DNA of 64,000 bases from Adineta ricciae (taxonomy: Eukaryota > Rotifera > Eurotatoria > Adinetida > Adinetidae): assembly GCA_905250025.1 (NCBI GenBank), contig CAJNOJ010000003.1, positions 1,219,032 through 1,283,031 of the forward strand, read 5' to 3'. The position numbers and the translations under genes were made by a program. Shown in pieces: positions 19,584-39,375 of this stretch. Below the pieces are notes generated by a model that did not search any database, was not told the DNA's origin, and saw only the letters and a list, made by a program, of their open reading frames with translations. The first letter of the stretch is position 1. Every line of letters starts with the position of its first letter.

Positions 19584-22529
19584 TTATTCGACAATATATT
19601 TTATTAAAACATTATAGTGAGGATTTCGACCGTATTTCGCACAGATTGTCACTTCGTCCGAGCCAACAGTTAACGTTCGTTGAAAGTTGGAATTAACAAC
19701 GCTTTCCTCTCGAAGCATACGAGAATTATTCGTCATTGTAGCTAATATTGCTTCAGGTAAATAACAATGAAAGTCCACTACCGAACCTCGTATCAATTGA
19801 CCGTTCAATGGTGAATAAATATGACATTTATACGTCAGAAATTCGGGATAAATCGTAGGAAATTTTATCCGTTGCCGAAGATGAGTTACATGAAGGGGAA
19901 ACATAACAACTGACTTCGATTTTTTATCGCCACTATTGACATTCCGTGCATAGATCATTAACTCATGCTCACCGGTATGCTCAGGTGCAAACAGAAGTTG
20001 CCAAGCATTTCTTTCATAATCATATTGCACTAATGTACCATTTTCTACCGTTTGATGTTTGTACTGAATCGAGCAGGACAGTTGAACATCGTCTGGGGCT
20101 CGTATAAGTACTTCACTATAGGGAATATCGTCCGACCATATTGCCGTAGCGCGAGAGCGTGGTGACTTGATTTTTAAATCGAAGTCGTAGAATTCTTGCC
20201 ATGTTTGTGGAAATGACAATGCAGGCGCAGTAATATAATTAGCTTCAATGTGATACGCCACGGCTTCGTAGAACAAACTATCATCCGATGTTTTCTTTGC
20301 TAATATAGTAGCATGAAAGAGGCCATTTTCATTGGGTGCGAATCGGCAATACCAGATATCGTGTCGTCGATCATAATAAACCTCGTGACCGCCAAAGATC
20401 TTCTGGTTTTGGTCATTTGTCAACGAACCCATCAGGACGACATCGGATGGCGTCTTCAAACGTACTTCCACGAATGATCTATTGTCAGGTAGAACAATTT
20501 TACTACCACCTTCTGGATAAATCACTTCAAACTTGAAATCATAAAAGATTTGTTTTGTGTCAAGAGGATTACCAGCAGAAGACAATTGTCGTGCATCTAT
20601 TATATACGACGCTACAGCAGAAAAGTCGCCGGAATCAGACCTTTTCTTTGCAAAAATGAATCCTTCGAACATGCCACTTCGGTTCGGTACAAATGTGCAA
20701 CGCCAAACATCACTTTCGCTATCATAGTGAATTGTATGACCACGTAAAATTGCTTCTTTTCTATCATTTTCAAGTTGGCCATCGAGACAAACGTCAGCAG
20801 GACCTTGCATACGAACTTCAACAGTTGGTTTATCATTAGTGACGACAATAATACCTCGACTAACAGGAGAAAGAATCTTTAGGTTAAAATCGTAGAATAG
20901 TTGCCAAGTCTTTGGAAATGAGAAAGGTGGTAATGAAATTTGATTAGCGCAGATTTTAAATAATATAGCCGATTGAAAATTGCCAGGATCGCTTGTTTTC
21001 CTTGCAAAGATCGACGCACTGAATATACCACTCTTATTTGGAGCGAATCTGCATCTCCAATAATCCTTTTGTCGATCGTAATAAACTCGGTTGCCACACA
21101 TCACTGACTGACCATCAGAATCAGCAAGTTCGCCCATTAACTCAACATCAGATGGTGTACGTATTGCTATTTGAGTAAATTTTTCGCCGCTGTTCATATT
21201 GATTAAATGTGTTCCCATCGGCGACACAAGCTTCATTCCAAGGTCATGAAAAAGTTTCCATGTTCGTGGATAACTTATAGGACTCACCATCATCTCTTTG
21301 ACTTCGAGTGTTAAATCGAGAACAGGATCATACGAACCAATATCAGTATCACCCAGCTTAGCAAATATACTTATCTTATGATCACCGATGCTAGCAGGAG
21401 CAAAATAACAATTATAGACACGTTTTCTCTTGTCGAAAATAGTCGACTCGCCGCCTTCAACTATTTCATCATGTCGTTTTAGATTGGCGTTTAGCACAAC
21501 ATTCGATGGCGTCTTCAATATCACCAATGCGTATGGTTGATTGGGTTCAAGATAAACAACACCTTTGTTACGAGGCTGATACATTTCTAGCTTATATTCA
21601 AAATACAACGGACGTAGTTTTGGCATAGACATATACTGCGCCATACTAATCGGTGTTTCCAGCAGTTGCCACCTTTCTTCTTCTTTTCTAGGAAGATGAT
21701 GGTAAATCATCTCGTTCGGACGAGCAAGGAAATAATAAGCTTCAAGTCTCTGCTCGAACTCTTTCTTATCATTCACGTGACCTGCACCCCATGTCGACTC
21801 CACCAAGTACCAATGATGGTCGATCTCGACTACATTCCATGCATGGTCAACCTCACTCGGTGCACCTTCTCGATCATCGAATCCATATCCCTTCGAATAC
21901 CCGCTCACCACCTCACATGGCATTTGTAGATGATCGCACAAATATTTGTACATGTTGGCATAGCCTGCACAGACACCTCTTCTTGTTCGAAAGACTCCTT
22001 CGGCTGTCTGATCCTGATAGTTCTTAGTGAAATAGGAGACAGTATCATAGTGAATGTTGGATGCAATCCAGTAGAAAATGAACCAGTGTCGATGGATGAC
22101 AGATTTTCCTCCGGAGAATGTTTTTAGAATATCTGTAAGGTGAGAGAGCGAAGTTGGACTCCATCGTTCTATTGCAGATCGATATGAAGTTCTATTCACT
22201 GCTTCCTGGCGCTGTTGGATGAAAATTTGATTGAATGCATCTGGATCAGCCGGGACAATGTCAATAAATTTTTCAGCACTTGATGGAAGCTTCTCCTTGG
22301 TAATATCCTCTAGTATATCTTTTGGAGGCTGATGAATTTGAGGTTCTGTCTTCCTAGGATTGTAGTCTGAAGCCTTATCAACAGGCTCTGGAATTATGTG
22401 AGGTGATTGTGTTTCTTGATTGATAGGATTGGGATCAGGTTCTGGAATTATGTGAGGTGATGGTGTTTTTCTATCCACAGGTTTAATAGTATAAATGGGT
22501 TTCTGACATGGACAGATTCGACAACCCAT
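19584..22529 (-). CDS. KY-type transglutaminase-core protein with six repeated beta domains (copy 1)
   Basis: An intronless 981-aa frame. It starts MGCRICPC, a motif fit for N-myristoylation at Gly2 and palmitoylation at Cys3, and an SPHIIPEP motif is then repeated twice. A transglutaminase/KY core spans about residues 115-310: RGVCAGYANMY (candidate nucleophile Cys187), VDHAWNVV (His229) and YLVESTWGAGH, where the usual acidic residue is Glu244. About six repeats of roughly 115 aa follow, each opening with a pattern like FPKTWQ-FYDF-LKI-SP and containing a CxFAP-type segment. KY-family proteins act at muscle Z-discs and the cytoskeleton as putative peptidases or scaffolds. The core is nearly identical to that of the gene at 24632-26782, while the repeats have diverged. 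Membrane attachment is inferred. Confidence 0.85.
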   Translation of the reverse strand: MGCRICPCQKPIYTIKPVDRKTPSPHIIPEPDPNPINQETQSPHIIPEPVDKASDYNPRKTEPQIHQPPKDILEDITKEKLPSSAEKFIDIVPADPDAFNQIFIQQRQEAVNRTSYRSAIERWSPTSLSHLTDILKTFSGGKSVIHRHWFIFYWIASNIHYDTVSYFTKNYQDQTAEGVFRTRRGVCAGYANMYKYLCDHLQMPCEVVSGYSKGYGFDDREGAPSEVDHAWNVVEIDHHWYLVESTWGAGHVNDKKEFEQRLEAYYFLARPNEMIYHHLPRKEEERWQLLETPISMAQYMSMPKLRPLYFEYKLEMYQPRNKGVVYLEPNQPYALVILKTPSNVVLNANLKRHDEIVEGGESTIFDKRKRVYNCYFAPASIGDHKISIFAKLGDTDIGSYDPVLDLTLEVKEMMVSPISYPRTWKLFHDLGMKLVSPMGTHLINMNSGEKFTQIAIRTPSDVELMGELADSDGQSVMCGNRVYYDRQKDYWRCRFAPNKSGIFSASIFARKTSDPGNFQSAILFKICANQISLPPFSFPKTWQLFYDFNLKILSPVSRGIIVVTNDKPTVEVRMQGPADVCLDGQLENDRKEAILRGHTIHYDSESDVWRCTFVPNRSGMFEGFIFAKKRSDSGDFSAVASYIIDARQLSSAGNPLDTKQIFYDFKFEVIYPEGGSKIVLPDNRSFVEVRLKTPSDVVLMGSLTNDQNQKIFGGHEVYYDRRHDIWYCRFAPNENGLFHATILAKKTSDDSLFYEAVAYHIEANYITAPALSFPQTWQEFYDFDLKIKSPRSRATAIWSDDIPYSEVLIRAPDDVQLSCSIQYKHQTVENGTLVQYDYERNAWQLLFAPEHTGEHELMIYARNVNSGDKKSKSVVMFPLHVTHLRQRIKFPTIYPEFLTYKCHIYSPLNGQLIRGSVVDFHCYLPEAILATMTNNSRMLREESVVNSNFQRTLTVGSDEVTICAKYGRNPHYNVLIKYIVE
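21601..22188. repeat. 588-bp tract nearly identical to 25944-26531
   Basis: The segment coding the transglutaminase core of KY copy 1 matches KY copy 2 with about six differences by eye (about 99 percent). The flanking coding sequence on both sides is strongly diverged. Boundaries are sharp, as expected for gene conversion. Confidence 0.85.
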
Positions 22530-24631: not shown

Positions 24632-26782
24632 TTATTGAACAGTATATTCTATAATGCGTTGATAGCTTGTACCTTCATCATATTTCGCACATATACAAAC
24701 TTCATTTGAGCCGACTGTAATTTGTTTTTGAAGAACAGGATCAGTATAACCTTCCTTATCTAGCCATTTTGAATCGACTATGATATTAACATCTTTTGCG
24801 CCTGGAATAACACAATGAATAGGAACGATGGAATTTTTCTTTAGAATTCCTTCCATTGGTGTATAAATTTGACATTTATTTGTTTCGAACGAACTGTAAA
24901 TCTTGGGGAATTTTATTGATTGTCGCAGTTTAGTCACATTGAGATTGAATTCAACGACTGAACTAAATTTTGATTCACCATCATTATTACGCTTACCATA
25001 GACGGCGAGTTTATGTTGACCAGGTCGCTCCGGTGCGAATAACAGTTGCCAATAATTCTTTTCTCGGCAGTATTGTGCTAAGGCCCCATTTTCAATTTCA
25101 ACATTGTTGTATTGTATAGCACAACTAAGTTGAACATCGTCAGGAGTTTGAATCAACACCTCGGTATACAATGCATCGTTTGCCCAAACGGCATTGGCAC
25201 GATTCATTGGAGCCAATATCTTGAGGTCAAGATCATAGAACTCTTTCCATGTTCGTGGATATGACATATTCGGCGAAGGAATTTGTTTTGCGTCGATTTT
25301 GAATGAAACTGCAGACCAATAACTTCCGGTGTCATTTTTTTCCTTTGCCATAATGGCTGCTTCGAACAGTCCATTGCGATCCGGCGCGAAATTACATTTC
25401 CAAATCTTTTCTTCTCGGTTGAAGTACACTTGCTCTCCATTGCTTAACACGTTACCGGTTTCGTCGGTCAATTTTCCTAATAGTTCGACATTTTCAGGCG
25501 CTTTTATCAGAATCTGGGCAAAGGCAGCACCGTTCGCCAGTTTGATCAGGTGCGTATCCTGAGGTGACATAATTTCCAGCCCTAAATCAGTAAATCTTTT
25601 CCAGGTTTTCGGAAAACTTATGCACTTCGCAGGCATTTGTTTCACATCCAATATTAGCTCCATGACTGAATGATATGTTCCATTCTCGTCATCGCCTTGT
25701 TTTCCAGAGACCACTATTTGATGTTTACCTACGTTCGCTGGTGCAAAATAGCAGCAATGCACTTGTTTTAGCTTGTCGAAAATGATTCGATGGCCACCTT
25801 CGACCTTTTTACCATTCATTTTTAAATGTGCGAGAAGATGTACATCGGCTGGAGTCTTTATAACAACCAAGGCATAAGATTTTCCTGCTACAAAATCAAC
25901 ATGAGCTAAATTACATGGACTAATCAATTCCAAATTCAGCTGGAAATACAACGGACGTAGTTTTGGCATTGACATATACTGCGCCATACTAATCGGTGTT
26001 TCCAGCAGTTGCCACCTTTCTTCTTCTTTTCTAGGAAGATGATGGTAAATCATCTCGTTCGGACGAGCAAGGAAATAATAAGCTTCAAGTCTCTGCTCGA
26101 ACTCTTTCTTATCATTCACGTGACCTGCACCCCATGTCGACTCCACCAAGTACCAATGATGGTCGATCTCGACTACATTCCATGCATGGTCAACCTCACT
26201 CGGTGCACCTTCTCGATCATCGAATTCATATCCCTTCGAATACCCGCTCACCACCTCACATGGCATTTGTAGATGATCGCACAAATATTTGTACATGTTG
26301 GCATAGCCTGCACAGACACCTCGTCTTGTTCGAAAGACTCCTTCGGCTGTCTGATCCTGATAGTTCTTAGTGAAATAGGAGACAGTATCATACTGAATGT
26401 TGGATGCAATCCAGTAGAAAATGAACCAGTGTCGATGGATGACAGATTTTCCTTCGGAGAATGTTTTTAGAATATCTGTAAGGTGAGAGAGCGAAGTTGG
26501 ACTCCATCGTTCTATTGCAGATTGATATGAACGATCGTTGATGGCCCGAAATCTTTCCTTAATAAATGACTCATTGAATGCCTGTGGATCGACTAATTGG
26601 AAATTTGAATGCCTTTTATTATTACGTAAATTTGTAATAATTGCTTCATCTGACGGAGTAACGTCTGGTTCTATGATGATTTTGTTGACTCTCTGCTGTT
26701 CGACTTGACTGCCATGTTGATTTTCCGCTTGCAATACCACTGGTTCAGGATTTGGAGCTGTTTTTCGGTGGCAACAACCCAT
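24632..26782 (-). CDS. KY-type transglutaminase-core protein with four repeated beta domains (copy 2)
   Basis: An intronless 716-aa frame starting MGCCHRK, again suited to N-terminal myristoylation and palmitoylation. The core has RGVCAGYANMY (Cys157), VDHAWNVV (His199) and LVESTWGAGH (Glu214 at the third catalytic position). Four beta-rich repeats follow, the first opening with FQLNLELISP, the next two with SFPKTWKRFTDLGLEIMSP and SYPRTWKEFYDLDLKILAP. This is two repeats fewer than copy 1. The N-terminal 80 residues and the repeats differ clearly from copy 1, while the core is about 99 percent identical in DNA. The TMEM272-like gene lies between the copies on the opposite strand. Likely role: a membrane-anchored cytoskeletal scaffold or peptidase, by family analogy. 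Confidence 0.85.
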   Translation of the reverse strand: MGCCHRKTAPNPEPVVLQAENQHGSQVEQQRVNKIIIEPDVTPSDEAIITNLRNNKRHSNFQLVDPQAFNESFIKERFRAINDRSYQSAIERWSPTSLSHLTDILKTFSEGKSVIHRHWFIFYWIASNIQYDTVSYFTKNYQDQTAEGVFRTRRGVCAGYANMYKYLCDHLQMPCEVVSGYSKGYEFDDREGAPSEVDHAWNVVEIDHHWYLVESTWGAGHVNDKKEFEQRLEAYYFLARPNEMIYHHLPRKEEERWQLLETPISMAQYMSMPKLRPLYFQLNLELISPCNLAHVDFVAGKSYALVVIKTPADVHLLAHLKMNGKKVEGGHRIIFDKLKQVHCCYFAPANVGKHQIVVSGKQGDDENGTYHSVMELILDVKQMPAKCISFPKTWKRFTDLGLEIMSPQDTHLIKLANGAAFAQILIKAPENVELLGKLTDETGNVLSNGEQVYFNREEKIWKCNFAPDRNGLFEAAIMAKEKNDTGSYWSAVSFKIDAKQIPSPNMSYPRTWKEFYDLDLKILAPMNRANAVWANDALYTEVLIQTPDDVQLSCAIQYNNVEIENGALAQYCREKNYWQLLFAPERPGQHKLAVYGKRNNDGESKFSSVVEFNLNVTKLRQSIKFPKIYSSFETNKCQIYTPMEGILKKNSIVPIHCVIPGAKDVNIIVDSKWLDKEGYTDPVLQKQITVGSNEVCICAKYDEGTSYQRIIEYTVQ
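25944..26531. repeat. 588-bp tract nearly identical to 21601-22188
   Basis: Partner of the tract in KY copy 1, at an offset of 4343 bp and in the same orientation. It covers the transglutaminase core only. Confidence 0.85.
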
Positions 26783-32136: not shown

Positions 32137-33468
32137 ATGATTCAAGAACAACTTCTTAGTTGTTGTCGAGATCCAATCGAGTCAAATGAAGATGAATTAT
32201 TTCTATTGAATCATATCTTGGCTGAAGTTGAGTATCAACATAAGAGACATCTCGTCGATGCTGAAGATGCTACTCATCGTGCGCCGTTATTTCACGCCAT
32301 CGAAAGTGGCAAATCGTTGCATTTTCTCAGACGATTACTTGACTTTCAAGTTCATATCACAAGTCGAATATTAATCTGTGCTATCCGTTATGGAAATCTA
32401 GACACGTTAAGACTATTTCATGAATACGGTGCTGATTTTCGTCAATCATATCATGGTTTATCCCTTCTGCATGAATGTATACTCTTACATAAAAATAATC
32501 TAATTAGCTTCTTAATCGAACAAGCAGGAGTAAGTTTATCAAAATGTCATTCTTTTCCAAGAAGTCTTATTTTCTTTCAGATCGATCCGAATAGTGCAGA
32601 TTATGATCACCAAACACCATTATTATACGCAATATTTCGAACGAATATCGATGCTATTCATATTCTACTTCGGTATGGAATGATCGATCCATGTTTGATA
32701 AGTACACGTACAAAGCAATTGACTTGCTTCCATGCAGCATGCGAATTGGGTATTGATGAAGTTCTACCATCGATGATGAATTACATCGCAATAGAGAATA
32801 TTAACAAGCTTTCTCTTGGGGATCAAACCTCGTTTGATCTGTTCTTATCGTGTTATTTATTCACAAAGAATAATTTGTATATGAATGAGGAATCTTTACA
32901 GAAATTCTCGTCCTTATTCGATCTATTCGTATCTCGTGGCGCAAAATTGCACCATTTAACGAAGGCTTATCGACGGACACGCGCTCCCTATGTGACAAAG
33001 ATTCTGACTATACTTCTGAAAAAGAATCTTCTTCTATCGGATATTATTCTTGAAACGGGCCGTTCGACGATCGTCAATTATTTGCAATCGTTGATTTGTC
33101 AATCGTTGGGTGACTGGCCGTATTTGGTGGAATCGAATGATAGTATCACCTGGAAACAACAACAAATCATTCTTCGACAACTTTATGAATTATTCATATT
33201 TGCGTATTTCAAATCTTGCAATCGTCAGACGATCAATAAGAAATTACTAACAAGATGCTGCTCGGCGAATAAACATAATTCGAAGATGAAACAGATTTTG
33301 TGGATATTTATACAGAATTTTGTAGAGCCGAGAAAATTAGTGGAACCATTGAAATCAATATGTCGAACGCAGATTTTGCTGAATATCGATTCGATTGATA
33401 AGCATTGTACAAGTGTCAATTTAGAAATTCCGAAAGAACTGGATAGTTATCTTCTATTTTTTATCTGA
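32137..33468 (+). CDS. Ankyrin-repeat and SOCS-box protein (ASB-like)
   Basis: The frame is open throughout, but GTAAGT at 32530 and TTTCAG ending at 32580 mark a 51-bp intron of whole-codon length. Splicing gives 426 aa and retention 443 aa. Degenerate ankyrin repeats include HRAPLFHAIESGKSLHFLRRLL, GLSLLHECILLHKNNLISFLIEQ and HQTPLLYAIFRTNIDAIHILL. The C-terminus has EPLKSICRTQIL and LEIPKELDSYLLF, which fit a SOCS box (BC-box and Cul5-type segments). ASB proteins are substrate adaptors of Elongin B/C-Cullin 5 ubiquitin ligases, with the ankyrin solenoid binding the target. The target cannot be predicted. The start is the first ATG of the frame. Confidence 0.75.
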   Translation: MIQEQLLSCCRDPIESNEDELFLLNHILAEVEYQHKRHLVDAEDATHRAPLFHAIESGKSLHFLRRLLDFQVHITSRILICAIRYGNLDTLRLFHEYGADFRQSYHGLSLLHECILLHKNNLISFLIEQAGVSLSKCHSFPRSLIFFQIDPNSADYDHQTPLLYAIFRTNIDAIHILLRYGMIDPCLISTRTKQLTCFHAACELGIDEVLPSMMNYIAIENINKLSLGDQTSFDLFLSCYLFTKNNLYMNEESLQKFSSLFDLFVSRGAKLHHLTKAYRRTRAPYVTKILTILLKKNLLLSDIILETGRSTIVNYLQSLICQSLGDWPYLVESNDSITWKQQQIILRQLYELFIFAYFKSCNRQTINKKLLTRCCSANKHNSKMKQILWIFIQNFVEPRKLVEPLKSICRTQILLNIDSIDKHCTSVNLEIPKELDSYLLFFI

Positions 33469-33594: not shown

Positions 33595-36500
33595 TTATGA
33601 TCTGGCAAATTTGCTTGGAACTGCTTCTATAAGAATACAATAAGGTATTTTTTTCAAATCGACTTCTGTTGAAATGAACTTACGCATTTGCGTTTGTTGT
33701 CGTTGTTCAGTCATTGATTGTTGACCGAATTGAGTTGGTTCATTTGATCGAAATAAAGTTTGTCCACGAAAACTTTGTGGAACATGTCCTAAAAGCAAAT
33801 CAGGCATGAAATCATGGATTTTACATCAATTTAAAGAGTACCTTGAAAAAGATCTGAGTTTGTTGGAAGTGTTGTCGCTTCGATGGATCTACCGGTCACT
33901 TGTTCTAAGCAGAGGAGTGAATGGTAAATTAGAGAAGAGTGATATGTGTACTCACCAGTTTGTGGTTGAAGTCGTAGCTCAGTAGGTTTGAGGACTCTAC
34001 CGTCTTAAAATCAACAGAGTTCGGTAATCAATCAGAGAATTTGAAGAGAACTACTTTGCATTTGTTGATTCGACCATGTTTGTCTTTGATCATAAGCATT
34101 CTGAGGCGTCATACCTTGTTGTTGTTGTCGTTGAGGAAATACGAACTGAGTATTTTGCTTTTGAAAAGAATCTTCAGTCGCTACTTGTCGTTGATCTAAA
34201 AGAGAAAAAGACTTACTACAATCATTTTAACATGGAATTTAAATATTTACCTTGAGATAGAAGTATTGTGTCTTGTTTTCCTGTATCTATTGAAAGTTCG
34301 GAAGAGATTCATAATGAAGACGAGAAAAAATGTAAATGGTACCTTTCCAATGTGTCGGTTTGAAAGCGATTACTTGAGTTGTTTGGCTTCTGGGTGATTG
34401 TTCTGCAAGACACGATTTGATTGGAAATGAGAAAATTAATGCCTTACTTTGAAATCGAGTTTCCCACGATTGTTCTTGTCCGTGATGTTCTTGTCGAGAA
34501 GGATTTATTTGTCGGTTTCCTTCAACTTCAACAAGGACTTGTGGATTTTGAGCTAGGTTAGGAAATGAATGTAGTTGGCCCATATATTTACGCATACAAA
34601 TGACGATATACCTTGAAATTTGGTTTCCCATGGCTTTTGTTGTTCTGAGAAACGTTGTGGGGGAAGAATGACGTGTGGTGTTTGTATTGTTGTTGTTGTT
34701 GTTGTTAAGGGTGTTGTCGCGGTAAAAGGTGCTTGTATTGAAGCTGAAATAGAGAAAGATTATGTTTAACTAGTTTGCTTCTCAAAAGTGAAATTGAAAA
34801 CGTACCTCGCAATTGTTGTTGACCTCCTAAACTCTGTTTTTCTATAGAAACAATACAGATTCCGATGAGATTAGTCGAAGAAGAAAAATAGTTTACCTTG
34901 CCAAGTTTGAGCGGGTGGAACAAAACGTTGAGCGATTTGTTGATATCCTGTTGAGACAAAACAAATGCAATGTATTTTACCTGAAGTATTCCTACCTGTT
35001 TCAAGGCGATTGCTTCCATCAAATGTCATTGTCTCTGGACGATGTGTTTCGGTTTGCTCGTCTCTTTGAAATGATTTTGTATCTAATAGACATGACGAAC
35101 AAAAACGAAAAGCTAATGATATTGAAAAGTGTTCATACTTTGCCATTTCTGAGGTTGTGTACCAAAGAGTTGTGTCTGTTGTTGCCAAGATTGATCACCT
35201 CTCTGAAGATCCTTATCTGTTATGACTACAAAGAAGTATTCGATTACAGATTGAAGAAGTGAAGAGACTATAACTAACCTTCTACGCGAATTGTGTTTTG
35301 TGCTGGTGAACTTGTCTCAATGTCTGCTTGTCCTAAAGAAAGCGATTGAGTCAGATTGAGAATAAACAGAGCTGATAATGCTACTTTGTGCTTGTGGTTG
35401 TGTTTGAAAGGCTGAACAGGTCATATGAACGATAATTAGCAGTAGAAGAAAAACGAGGATACTTACTCTGCGATGATTGTACAAATTGAGATCCTGTCAT
35501 TGGAGCGGCATTTTGTCTCATTTGCCAGGTTTGCTGTTCGCGAGGATTTTGTTGTTGAAATCCTAAATATCGGATGCAACGATTGCAAAATAAACGTATC
35601 CAATTTTGAACACACCTTGCAATTGCACGGTATTTTGCGGAAACTTCGCAAGATGCATACTCCATTCTTGACTGTCATCTAATAAGATTCATAGTCATAG
35701 ATTACAAAGCTTTAATTTGAGAAAAATAAAGACAAACATACCTTGAACTTGTTCGTTGCGTTGAACTATTTTTAATCGCAGAAAATAAATTAAGTTTGCA
35801 GAACCATAGATACAAAAAGATGCACTCACCATTCTGAACTTGTGGTCGGAGAGCGACACGTTGAGAGCTTTGCACATTACTTTCTGGTAATTTATCTAAT
35901 ATTGAATAGTTATTTTGCACTGTAGCTTACTTTACATTTTAACTTACTTAACCATTGTTTTGTACCAAAAGATTGTTGGTTTTGTTGAAATTCTAGAAGA
36001 GAAACGGTACACTCAACAACACATAAACGCAGAAAGGACGTACGCTGTTGTTGTTGTTGTCGTTGGCTGTCTTGTTCAGCTCGAAATCGATTCGAATCGA
36101 CGTCAGTAGATAAACCATCTGACACAACTGATACACGTTGTTTTTGACCTATAGAAAAAGAAGAAAACACATTAATTCGTTAATTGATATCTAAACTTGC
36201 CTTGTGACTGTCTCGATTCTTGATCTTTTTGTGGAACTAAAATATTCAACAATCCTAGATTTTTCAGTCTGACAGACGAATAGAGTCTTACTTTGCCATT
36301 GGCTGGATCCAGTAAACATGTTTTCACGGACTTGGTTGGGATTTATCATTTGTGATACTTGATCTATACGAATACAAATGAACGTAGAGAAGTGCTGAGT
36401 GTAGATAAAATTTCGGTTATGTACTTCGAAGTTCTTGAGTCTTTTGTCCGAGTTCAGGTAAATTTTGAATCGAAACTCCTTGAAAAATTTAAAAGAATGA

Positions 36501-37952
36501 ATAATATCGACCAGAAGAATTCATACCGTTCTGACTATCGACGGTTACTAATATTTGTTTTCGATCGGCAGCTCGGGCTGGAATGAAGCCAAAAAGATCT
36601 GGACTATTTATTTTAACATTTTGAGCCGATTGCCTAAAAATTATGGAAACAATTGAAGTCTTTGAGTTCGTAAACGATTTCTCTATCTACATGTCCCGTT
36701 GAAGTTGGAGAGAAGTTGCCGATGGTTGAATTAATTTTTGTGCATCTGTATTGTCAAAGACTTGTTCTTGATCGCCCTTGATAGCGATACTAGTTGATGG
36801 TATTGTTATAAAGGCTGGCATATCAATTTTAGCTGGTCGTTTACGATCGCAGATTTTCTCTTCTTGATTCCAGTAAAGTAATGGACCACACGGTTGAAAA
36901 TAGATCAATTCGCCGTCACATTGAATGTATGCACGTTGACTGAATGCAAATGGGTAGAATTGTTCGGTTGTTGTCAAACATGGATTTGGCACAGCTATTC
37001 AATGATATACAATCATCAATACACAAAATGAAAGATTTTTCTTCTTCAACAACAAACCTTCGCGACAGTTAAGACCATAACCTTTCAATGTATGACAGAC
37101 ACAAACATAATCTTGTTCATAATCGTTTGTTGTCAATGGTCGACATTCAGCATTTGGGCCACATGGTTTTTTGACACACGAGTTCACTGGTGTTTCACAT
37201 CGTTCACCTGTCCAGTCTGATCGGCAAGTACATTTGAATGTAGAATTCGATGCAATGGAGCAAACACCCTCATTTAAACATGGTTTTTCTACGTCGCATC
37301 TGTTTAATGATGGCGTTTCGGCGAGAAGGTCACATTCGTTGCTTTTGACGTTGAATTCAACACCATCTGGACATGTTAAGATTTCGTAATGAAATTCATC
37401 ACGACAGAATATATATTTTGTTTTCTCTTTTGGAAAAGCACGTTTCGACGATGGACGAGCGCCGATACATGGAGACGGTACTGAAAAATATGAAAAATAA
37501 CTTCGTAGAATGATAAAATAGAATTCAATACGAACATGGTTGAACGTCTGATACACCAACAATCTTTTTATCTGATTTTTCAGTTTCACTAAAACAAAAA
37601 CAAGAGAACTTCATTTCGAAAAACATTTGTCCGAAACATTTCTGCAACATACGTGCGCTCTGGTGATATTAATTCTTCGGTTTTTCCGTCTGCTAAAATT
37701 CGGAGTTGACCGAATGGATAACCTTTTTCTAAATCATTGGCATCAGCATCCTCTAAAAAGGAAAGGATTAACAATAAGTTCCTTTAAAAACAAAAGGAAA
37801 GAAAGATATCGACAACCTTTACTGTCATCACTGGTTTGCCCAAGAACACCAATGGCAAAGAATAGGACTAAGACGAAACTTAGCGAGTGCTATAAACATT
37901 GAACAATATCAAATAAGTACTTGTAAAAGAAATATTCTATTCAACGAACCAT
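33595..37952 (-). CDS. Secreted chitin-binding/EGF protein with 22 symmetric microexons (30 exons)
   Basis: Minus-strand exons, 5' to 3': 37950-37952 (ATG only), 37817-37889, 37653-37752, 37536-37588, 37058-37480, 36691-36994, 36527-36633; then 36425-36478, 36292-36363, 36201-36236, 36044-36148, 35948-35992, 35830-35895, 35742-35765, 35616-35678, 35467-35562, 35385-35411, 35279-35332, 35139-35225, 34996-35082, 34897-34947, 34806-34841, 34612-34743, 34448-34552, 34343-34402, 34251-34286, 34055-34195, 33956-34003, 33842-33904; last 33595-33788. Total 914 aa. Order: signal peptide (HSLSFVLVLFFAIGVLG), chitin-binding type-2 domain with YIFCRDEF--EILTCPDG, two EGF-like domains (CTCRSDWTGERCE and CVCHTLKGYGLNC), a second chitin-binding-like domain, then a Gln-rich tail of about 560 aa. 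Exons 8-29 all have lengths divisible by three and all introns 7-29 are phase 1 (45-64 bp). Likely an extracellular, chitin-associated matrix protein. The joins are inferred, but every junction keeps frame. Confidence 0.85.
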
Positions 37953-38574
37953 CGATTAAATTGCGCAAACGATCGTTCGAGAAGATCAAAACAAAATAGT
38001 CTTCGAATAGTCGATAAAGTGAACACGAAACTGTTCGGATCATTCTTCTTATAGTTCTAGCGAACAGAGACTACAGACGAATAGAAAGAACTACCTCGAT
38101 CGGTTATTGTTCACAAATCGTTTCATCTATTCGTTTCGTTGTCATTTCATACGAACAAATAACTAAATGGAATATCGGTTTCTAAATATCATCATCATCT
38201 ACATGTATCCGAACCGAACTGAAAGAACGATAAATGAATGAATGTTATATATCGACTATGATTAAGCTTTTTTTTCCTTCTAGTCAGAAGTTTCACCATG
38301 ATTCATCATATGTGCTCGTTTTGGCTTGATATTTGACATCCTAAAATACTATGTCATGCAAGCATAGAAATACATCATTAATAACTATTCTCCTCTTCTT
38401 CATTCTAAACATGATTTTAAAGACCTTGTCCCTGTATATCGCTCGATTTTCATTTCGAATATTTACTCATTCAACCGGAACACTAACTCTTCCCTTTTCT
38501 CCTTTTCTGTTCAACCGTATTCGTTTATCTATAATAAACATTGACTAACCAAATATTAAGTACCCAAAACTCCA
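37953..38574. other. Divergent intergenic region
   Basis: Upstream of both the chitin-binding gene and the OTU gene. It contains the probable 5'UTR and promoter of each. A short plus-strand hydrophobic frame at 38351-38548 is not convincing. Confidence 0.4.
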
Positions 38575-39375
38575 ATGATCTATACGATTGAAAATGTTTA
38601 CATTCAACCTGTAAATCATAACATATTATTCAATACACTAACGCCACAACCATCTGTGATTTATTTATCGACACCTGTCACATCCTATACGTATTCACCG
38701 CCAATCCAAACGCAGTACATCTATCCGATTCATGCAGTAAGTCAACAAACGTCTGAAGTGAAGAAAGTTTCTCAAGAGTGTATACAAAAAGAACGAGCTA
38801 AAACTCCGGTTAAACGGCCTCCAACACCGTTGTCAGCTGACGAACAATTAAATTTAAATCTTTCACGTTATGGTTATCGACGACAATTAGTCAATGGAGA
38901 CGGAAATTGTTTTTTTACTGCTGTTGCTAGTCAATTAATAACATTCTACAATCAAGATCGATACTTCCGTACGGCTATTAAACAACGTTTAAATCTTCCG
39001 GAGAATTTGTTCACAAATACGACACAATTAGCTCGAACATTACGAAAATTAGCTTGTTTAGAATGGAAAATAAATGACACCAAGTATAAACCATATGTAA
39101 ATGATGTGAATTATTACGATGAAATACGAAAATTTCGTTCGGATAAGTTTTATTCATCGATTTTAGGTGATATTTTGCCATTGACAATGAGTAATTTGCT
39201 TGGAATTCCCATTAAAATCATTACTAATCTTAGTCAATGTCCATTGATTGATGTTTGTCCACAAGATGAACCGTTATTATCCATGAAATCGATACCGATA
39301 TTGACATTAGCGTATAATCAAGAAAATGATGGACACTACGATATTGCGATAGGCAAAAGAGACAAAGAATTTTGA
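38575..39375 (+). CDS. OTU-domain cysteine protease (deubiquitinase-like)
   Basis: A single-exon frame of 266 aa. The first 90 residues are Thr/Pro/Tyr-rich and probably disordered. The OTU domain starts at YGYRRQLVNGDGNCFF, with candidate catalytic Asp109 and Cys112. GDILPLTMSNLLGIPIKII follows in the middle, and the domain ends with GHYDIAI, where His254 completes the active site. OTU enzymes remove ubiquitin from proteins or chains. All three key residues are present, so activity is expected. The closest forms are the stand-alone OTU proteins common in invertebrates and some mobile elements. No transposon domain is seen around it, although a non-autonomous element lies 640 bp downstream. 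Confidence 0.85.
   Translation: MIYTIENVYIQPVNHNILFNTLTPQPSVIYLSTPVTSYTYSPPIQTQYIYPIHAVSQQTSEVKKVSQECIQKERAKTPVKRPPTPLSADEQLNLNLSRYGYRRQLVNGDGNCFFTAVASQLITFYNQDRYFRTAIKQRLNLPENLFTNTTQLARTLRKLACLEWKINDTKYKPYVNDVNYYDEIRKFRSDKFYSSILGDILPLTMSNLLGIPIKIITNLSQCPLIDVCPQDEPLLSMKSIPILTLAYNQENDGHYDIAIGKRDKEF

Follow-up and report, generated by a model that had tools for sequence, protein, structure and literature searches.

Known Genes Built from Short Symmetric Exons

Arrays of short symmetric exons that encode disordered, repetitive or secreted proteins are known from the genes for elastin, the caseins and other SCPPs, some of which are alternatively spliced. The micro-exon genes (MEGs) of Schistosoma mansoni, as portrayed in the excerpted text of PMC10526429, have exons of 6–81 bp, mostly of 15 bp, and introns of 0.1–5 kb, and MEG proteins come mainly from the alternative splicing of the central exons. 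In aphids, the bicycle genes contain many small internal exons, almost all of which start with codon position 2, and encode proteins with N-terminal secretion signals; CYC motifs occur in many members, and putative homologues that have no obvious CYC motifs are also reported in the excerpted text (PMC9168663). The megacycle genes described in the same source have >100 microexons and are interpreted there as the outcome of internal tandem duplication, intron positions being shared. The words “alternative” and “isoform” do not occur in its main text. As to the setting in which a disordered protein might serve a chitinous structure, the excerpted text of PMC9629831 describes pharyngeal-cuticle proteins of C. 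elegans (APPG, IDPA-C) that are low-complexity, disordered and secreted into a chitin-based lining, and reports that Cys-, Pro- and Gln-rich proteins peak while this lining is being built.

Here, we describe a gene predicted in a 64,000-nt stretch of DNA from the rotifer Adineta ricciae (the whole stretch that was analysed, hereafter the window). With 24 successive phase-1 introns, this one gene joins two questions that are usually studied apart: the exon-by-exon growth of low-complexity matrix proteins, and the extent to which the phase of introns is guided by codon composition, with CAA yielding CAAG| splice-like sites. Its product is also a candidate protein of a chitinous animal structure. 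No such rotifer gene was found in the titles and abstract starts among the matches listed for the rotifer chitin-binding/trophi and micro-exon literature, a scope that does not establish its absence from print.

The Gene and Its Exon Array

The predicted gene lies on the minus strand from 37952 to 33595 and has 31 coding exons, which together comprise 2688 nt including the stop codon and encode 895 residues:

37950..37952, minus strand: probable start codon, end of coding exon 1 (chosen by hand; one further gene model agrees)
after coding exon 1, minus strand: intron 1, 60 nt, phase 0 (assembled model)
37536..37889, minus strand: exons 2–4, probable signal peptide and linker (assembled model; signal peptide judged by eye)
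36691..37480, minus strand: exons 5–6, chitin-binding/EGF head (Pfam and PDB sequence matches)
36527..36633, minus strand: exon 7, 107 nt, which immediately precedes the array and is asymmetric, entered in phase 2 and left in phase 1
33684..36478, minus strand: exons 8–30, 23 consecutive symmetric exons of 24–141 nt encoding 531 Gln-rich residues
35742..35765, minus strand: exon 14, 24 nt, the smallest exon of the array
34055..34195, minus strand: exon 27, 141 nt; a second donor, in phase, lies inside it at 34114
33788-33684, minus strand: exon 30, 105 nt, symmetric
33595..33626, minus strand: exon 31, the last coding exon, with the stop codon (assembled model)

The placement of the start codon is uncertain, since two models (Viterbi and strict) start at 38043 and the hand and permissive models at 37952; the 3' end also differs in the permissive model, which runs on to 33034. 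Introns 2, 3 and 4 of the assembled model are in phases 1, 2 and 1. The introns of the array (introns 7–30, n = 24) are 45–64 nt long with a median of 54 nt, and those of the head are 55–64 nt long. Intron 10 is of the GC-AG type, with the GC at 36199-36200 on the minus strand.

The original prediction had given 22 lengths for exons 8–29, and all of these are matched exactly by the assembled minus-strand model. The phase-1 assignment of introns 7–29 is likewise borne out, and the run extends to intron 30, which makes 24 consecutive introns in phase 1; all of the exons said to be symmetric are so, and exon 30 is symmetric too, which gives 23 in a row (exons 8–30). The skip-compatible architecture that had been proposed is thus present, in that each of the 23 tail exons can be removed without breaking the frame. 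The span that had been assigned to the array, 33595-36633, does contain it, but this span covers exons 7–31, whereas exons 8–29 occupy 36478-33842.

How firmly is this array supported? A search based on the lengths and on GT/GC..AG alone yields 24 chains, and in the five listed, exons 8 and 27 are misplaced and contain in-frame stops. A Viterbi model to which the lengths were not supplied, and whose tables for splice sites and codons had been retrained on the gene itself, recovered 23 of the array's 24 introns, with exon 8 made 51 nt rather than 54 nt long (the acceptor being 3 nt away, which leaves the exon symmetric) and exons 24 and 25 fused over an open intron of 45 nt. A stricter gene model retains 19 of the 24 and drops introns 11, 20, 24, 28 and 30. 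Because these five have lengths that are multiples of 3 and contain no in-frame stop, their removal depends on the splice signals. Finally, in a leave-one-out test, in which codon usage was learned from the other array exons, the assigned frame scored best, and was open, in 23 of 23 exons (narrowly so in exon 25, −3.85 versus −3.90), the other two frames being open in 10 exons each; a chance or misread frame was rejected on this basis.

How the Locus Compares with Described Systems

A likeness to the micro-exon genes of schistosomes had been proposed, and it does not amount to membership of that class: two of the defining features, exon size and intron length, differ. The exons here range over 24–141 nt, with 15 of 23 at ≤81 nt, 2 of 23 at ≤27 nt and none at 15 nt, and all 24 array introns are of 45–64 nt rather than 0.1–5 kb. 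What the two have in common is a run of short exons divisible by three (23 of 23 here, most in MEGs) and a secreted product, which is a prediction in our case. The gene also differs from MEGs in its chitin-binding head, and its structure is predicted from sequence.

The closest published design seen is that of the aphid bicycle and megacycle genes, which, compared by description with the excerpted text of PMC9168663, are nearer than MEGs. Exons 8–30 all start with codon position 2 (exons 2–7 do not all do so), as almost all internal bicycle exons do; the label “exon phase 2” used in that source is counted differently from intron phase 1, and by its wording the junction position is alike. Unlike bicycle genes, the present gene has no CYC motif, its tail having no Cys, and it has a CBM_14/EGF head. 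Its likeness to the megacycle genes, as the same text describes them, makes duplication a plausible origin for the tail.

The best analogue of the setting seen is provided by the disordered proteins of the C. elegans pharyngeal cuticle, the likeness to those in the excerpted text of PMC9629831 being one of composition and setting only. We file the exon-array design as already known, the chitin-binding head attached to it here being the variant part. As far as general background goes, the elastin, casein and SCPP genes follow a similar logic, and their composition differs from that of the tail.

The Predicted Chitin-Binding Head

That the gene begins with a chitin-binding head, as had been claimed, is upheld by a Pfam match to CBM_14, the peritrophin-A domain, in two stretches, which passes the cut-off (E 4e-7; 30.5 bits for the whole protein versus 22.1). 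CBM_14 copies usually carry 6 Cys; each copy here has 4, counted by eye. The claimed similarity to EGF also holds, in that phmmer matched the head by sequence to EGF structures of Notch and Delta, the best being a Notch-1 structure (E 9.2e-16), although the Pfam EGF match, in one stretch, is under the cut-off (E 0.0072; 17 bits versus 21.5). A match to EGF_Teneurin was dropped (E 0.022, under the Pfam cut-off). The order of modules is CBM_14, EGF-like, a second EGF-like (judged by eye and from the span of the PDB match) and CBM_14. The head is expected to bind chitin, and the protein is probably secreted, its signal peptide having been judged by eye.

A CBM_14/EGF head would also suit a secreted defence or recognition molecule, i.e., a chitin lectin with a variable tail, acting against fungi or other chitinous enemies. 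However, nothing specific favours such a role, and a Pfam scan of the protein found no defence domain; we regard it as very improbable.

The Gln-Rich Tail and a Probable Matrix Protein

The tail encoded by exons 8–30 was predicted to be rich in Gln, and it indeed has 121 Gln among its 531 residues, and no Cys. Its net charge is about zero, and the charge-hydropathy line places it among disordered sequences (0.358 versus 0.416), which suggests that most of it is disordered. Eight of its 11 Trp lie among the 7 residues that close an exon (p 0.005) and 7 of the 11 have a Gln at −2 (p 0.004), both tests having been picked post hoc, after inspection of the sequence. In addition, a complete Gln codon just before the split codon ends 14 of the 23 array exons. 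A Pfam match of the tail to AdenylateSensor was dropped (E 0.035, under the cut-off).

The mean similarity between the peptides of different exons is matched by only 2 of 200 within-exon shuffles, which suggests that an old duplication of modules may lie behind the tail. A recent tandem duplication at the DNA level was rejected: there are ten families of direct repeats, the longest reference being 33 nt, and seven short tandem rows, and several of the direct-repeat families are CAA/TTG-rich. An introner-like burst of near-identical introns was also rejected, the best match between introns having an E of 0.014 over 15 nt.

From the predicted gene structure and frame, the domain matches and the composition, we infer, with a confidence a little above even, a secreted matrix protein that carries a CBM_14/EGF head and a modular, disordered tail, the tail having grown by the duplication and loss of exons and the splicing being for the most part constitutive. 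The gene product would be secreted into the extracellular matrix, where the head (CBM_14, EGF-like modules, CBM_14) would bind chitin. The tail would be a 531-residue chain of degenerate modules, many of which close with a motif of the Q-x-W type, and it would give cohesion within a chitin composite such as the jaw, the pharyngeal lining, the cuticle or an egg cover. The symmetric phase-1 exons would record the growth of the tail, in which exon units in phase 1 were duplicated and lost, and Gln encoded by CAA, in supplying phase-1 CAAG| splice-like sites, may have aided this growth; the introns of 45–64 nt would be spliced mostly constitutively, any in-frame variants being few. Against this matrix-protein reading is the weakness of the duplication signal, since the ten best exon pairs are matched by 30 of 200 shuffles and the single best pair by 43 of 200, and the introns have no strong mutual similarity.

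The Phase-1 Run: Chance, Composition and Insertion

In a permissive gene model, the same-phase run is 23 phase-1 introns long in this gene and ≤4 in eight other models of the window, which have 25–38 introns each; these permissive models, whose splice matrices were trained on this gene, probably contain false introns and serve as a control of phase runs only. The strict comparators from elsewhere in the window, which comprise 24 introns from three models, have 9, 7 and 8 introns in phases 0, 1 and 2, respectively, and 6 of their 21 internal exons are symmetric. On a naive calculation, the probability of the run is 0.29^24, i.e., about 1.3e-13.

Composition changes this figure. In the tail, the splice-like word CAAG| falls in phase 1 at 27 of 29 places, AAG| at 34 of 49 and MAG|R at 28 of 42, whereas CAG| does so at only 13 of 29 and MAR| at 115 of 306. 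When places are weighted by a matrix derived from the splice junctions of the gene itself, the share in phase 1 is 0.549, and the probability of 24 out of 24 is about 5.7e-7. The phase-1 run is real, and the naive value of 1e-13 is an overstatement; the uniformity of phase may be due in part to composition, namely a CAA-rich frame and splice-like words that are biased in phase.

One explanation of the run would be the insertion of introns alone: a repetitive, Gln-rich tail would have gained introns at proto-splice sites (CAAG| and AAG|), mostly in phase 1, so that symmetry would be a by-product that required neither exon duplication nor selection for skipping. The bias of CAAG| and AAG| in the tail is what such insertion would predict. 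However, CAAG precedes only 7 of the 24 array junctions and AAG only 9 of 24, and the weighted share still leaves the low probability given above. Moreover, the head has an equal bias (MAG|R in phase 1 at 18 of 22 places), yet its introns occupy all three phases, and the Trp motifs of the tail cluster at exon ends. Insertion by itself seems unlikely, albeit with some chance of being right. The matrix-protein reading, in which composition has an auxiliary part, is also touched by this mixed evidence, i.e., by the bias of a head with mixed phases and by the failure of CAG| and MAR| to favour phase 1.

Constitutive Splicing or Combinatorial Skipping

The same array could be a generator of cassettes, in which exons 8–30 are skipped in many combinations and would thereby yield numerous secreted chitin-binding proteins that differ in their Gln-rich tails. 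This would accord with the symmetry of 23 of 23 exons in a single phase and with the survey of splicing in PMC6142364, the excerpted text of which states that, in nearly all animals, skipping is enriched for frame-preserving sequences and goes with shorter exons; rotifers are not mentioned in its main text. It would also accord with the possible retention of the five stop-free introns (11, 20, 24, 28 and 30) and with the donor at 34114 in exon 27, which scores 3.1 versus 0.99 for the exon's own donor and would give a version of 81 nt.

Other signs point the other way. According to the excerpted text of PMC6142364, skipped exons generally go with longer flanking introns, with a few exceptions named, whereas the introns here are of 45–64 nt; the free skipping of exons between such short introns, if true, would contradict this association, and a cassette system built on them would be unlike the long-intron MEGs of schistosomes. 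With matrices made from 24 introns of other models in the window, the splice sites of the array are no weaker than those of the head (donors 1.33 versus 1.03; acceptors 0.33 versus −0.14). Introns do not clearly pair with one another more than shuffles do, since the mean, the ten best and the best values are matched by 3, 14 and 12 of 40, respectively. In a scan with matrices trained on this gene, no donor or acceptor inside exons 8–30 other than that at 34114 scored as high as the median of the real sites of the array. The tested sequence signs of many isoforms are absent or slight, and skipping is still compatible with them.

Because these signs are slight and the flanking introns short, mostly constitutive splicing is ranked first, and a cassette generator is distinctly unlikely. 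The fuller proposal that one locus with 23 in-frame phase-1 cassettes and introns of 45–64 nt makes a combinatorial set of Gln-rich proteins, anchored to chitin and serving in a matrix or in defence, is, to us, quite improbable. Nevertheless, two points count against the matrix-protein reading here, too: the acceptors of the array have lower scores than those of the comparators (0.33 versus 2.11, the latter being self-trained), and short exons and the preservation of frame both go with skipping in animals (PMC6142364, excerpted text). The donor at 34114 is the best single place for a splice variant.

Relatives and Neighbours

No second copy of the gene was found in the window, where tblastn with E up to 1 gave 13 rows, all within the gene itself. 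Searches with parts of the head as queries, in collections not meant for animal genomes, gave 10 pattern matches in viral contigs and 38 in prokaryote genome contigs, and 0 were confirmed in either. The gene is flanked by an ankyrin-repeat ORF (32137-33468, plus strand) and by an ORF of 266 aa (38575-39375, plus strand), for which there is no Pfam match at E 0.001.

KY-type proteins are intracellular, and for this reason a link between the cross-linking of Gln and two other ORFs of the window would be speculation. These two are long single ORFs on the minus strand, at 19584-22529 and 24632-26782, both of which encode a transglutaminase-like core together with KY-type Ig-like domains (in 5 and 3 stretches, respectively). 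They are paralogues of one another, with 57% identity over 623 aligned residues, and are located about 11 and 7 kb away from the Gln-rich gene, past its 3' end.
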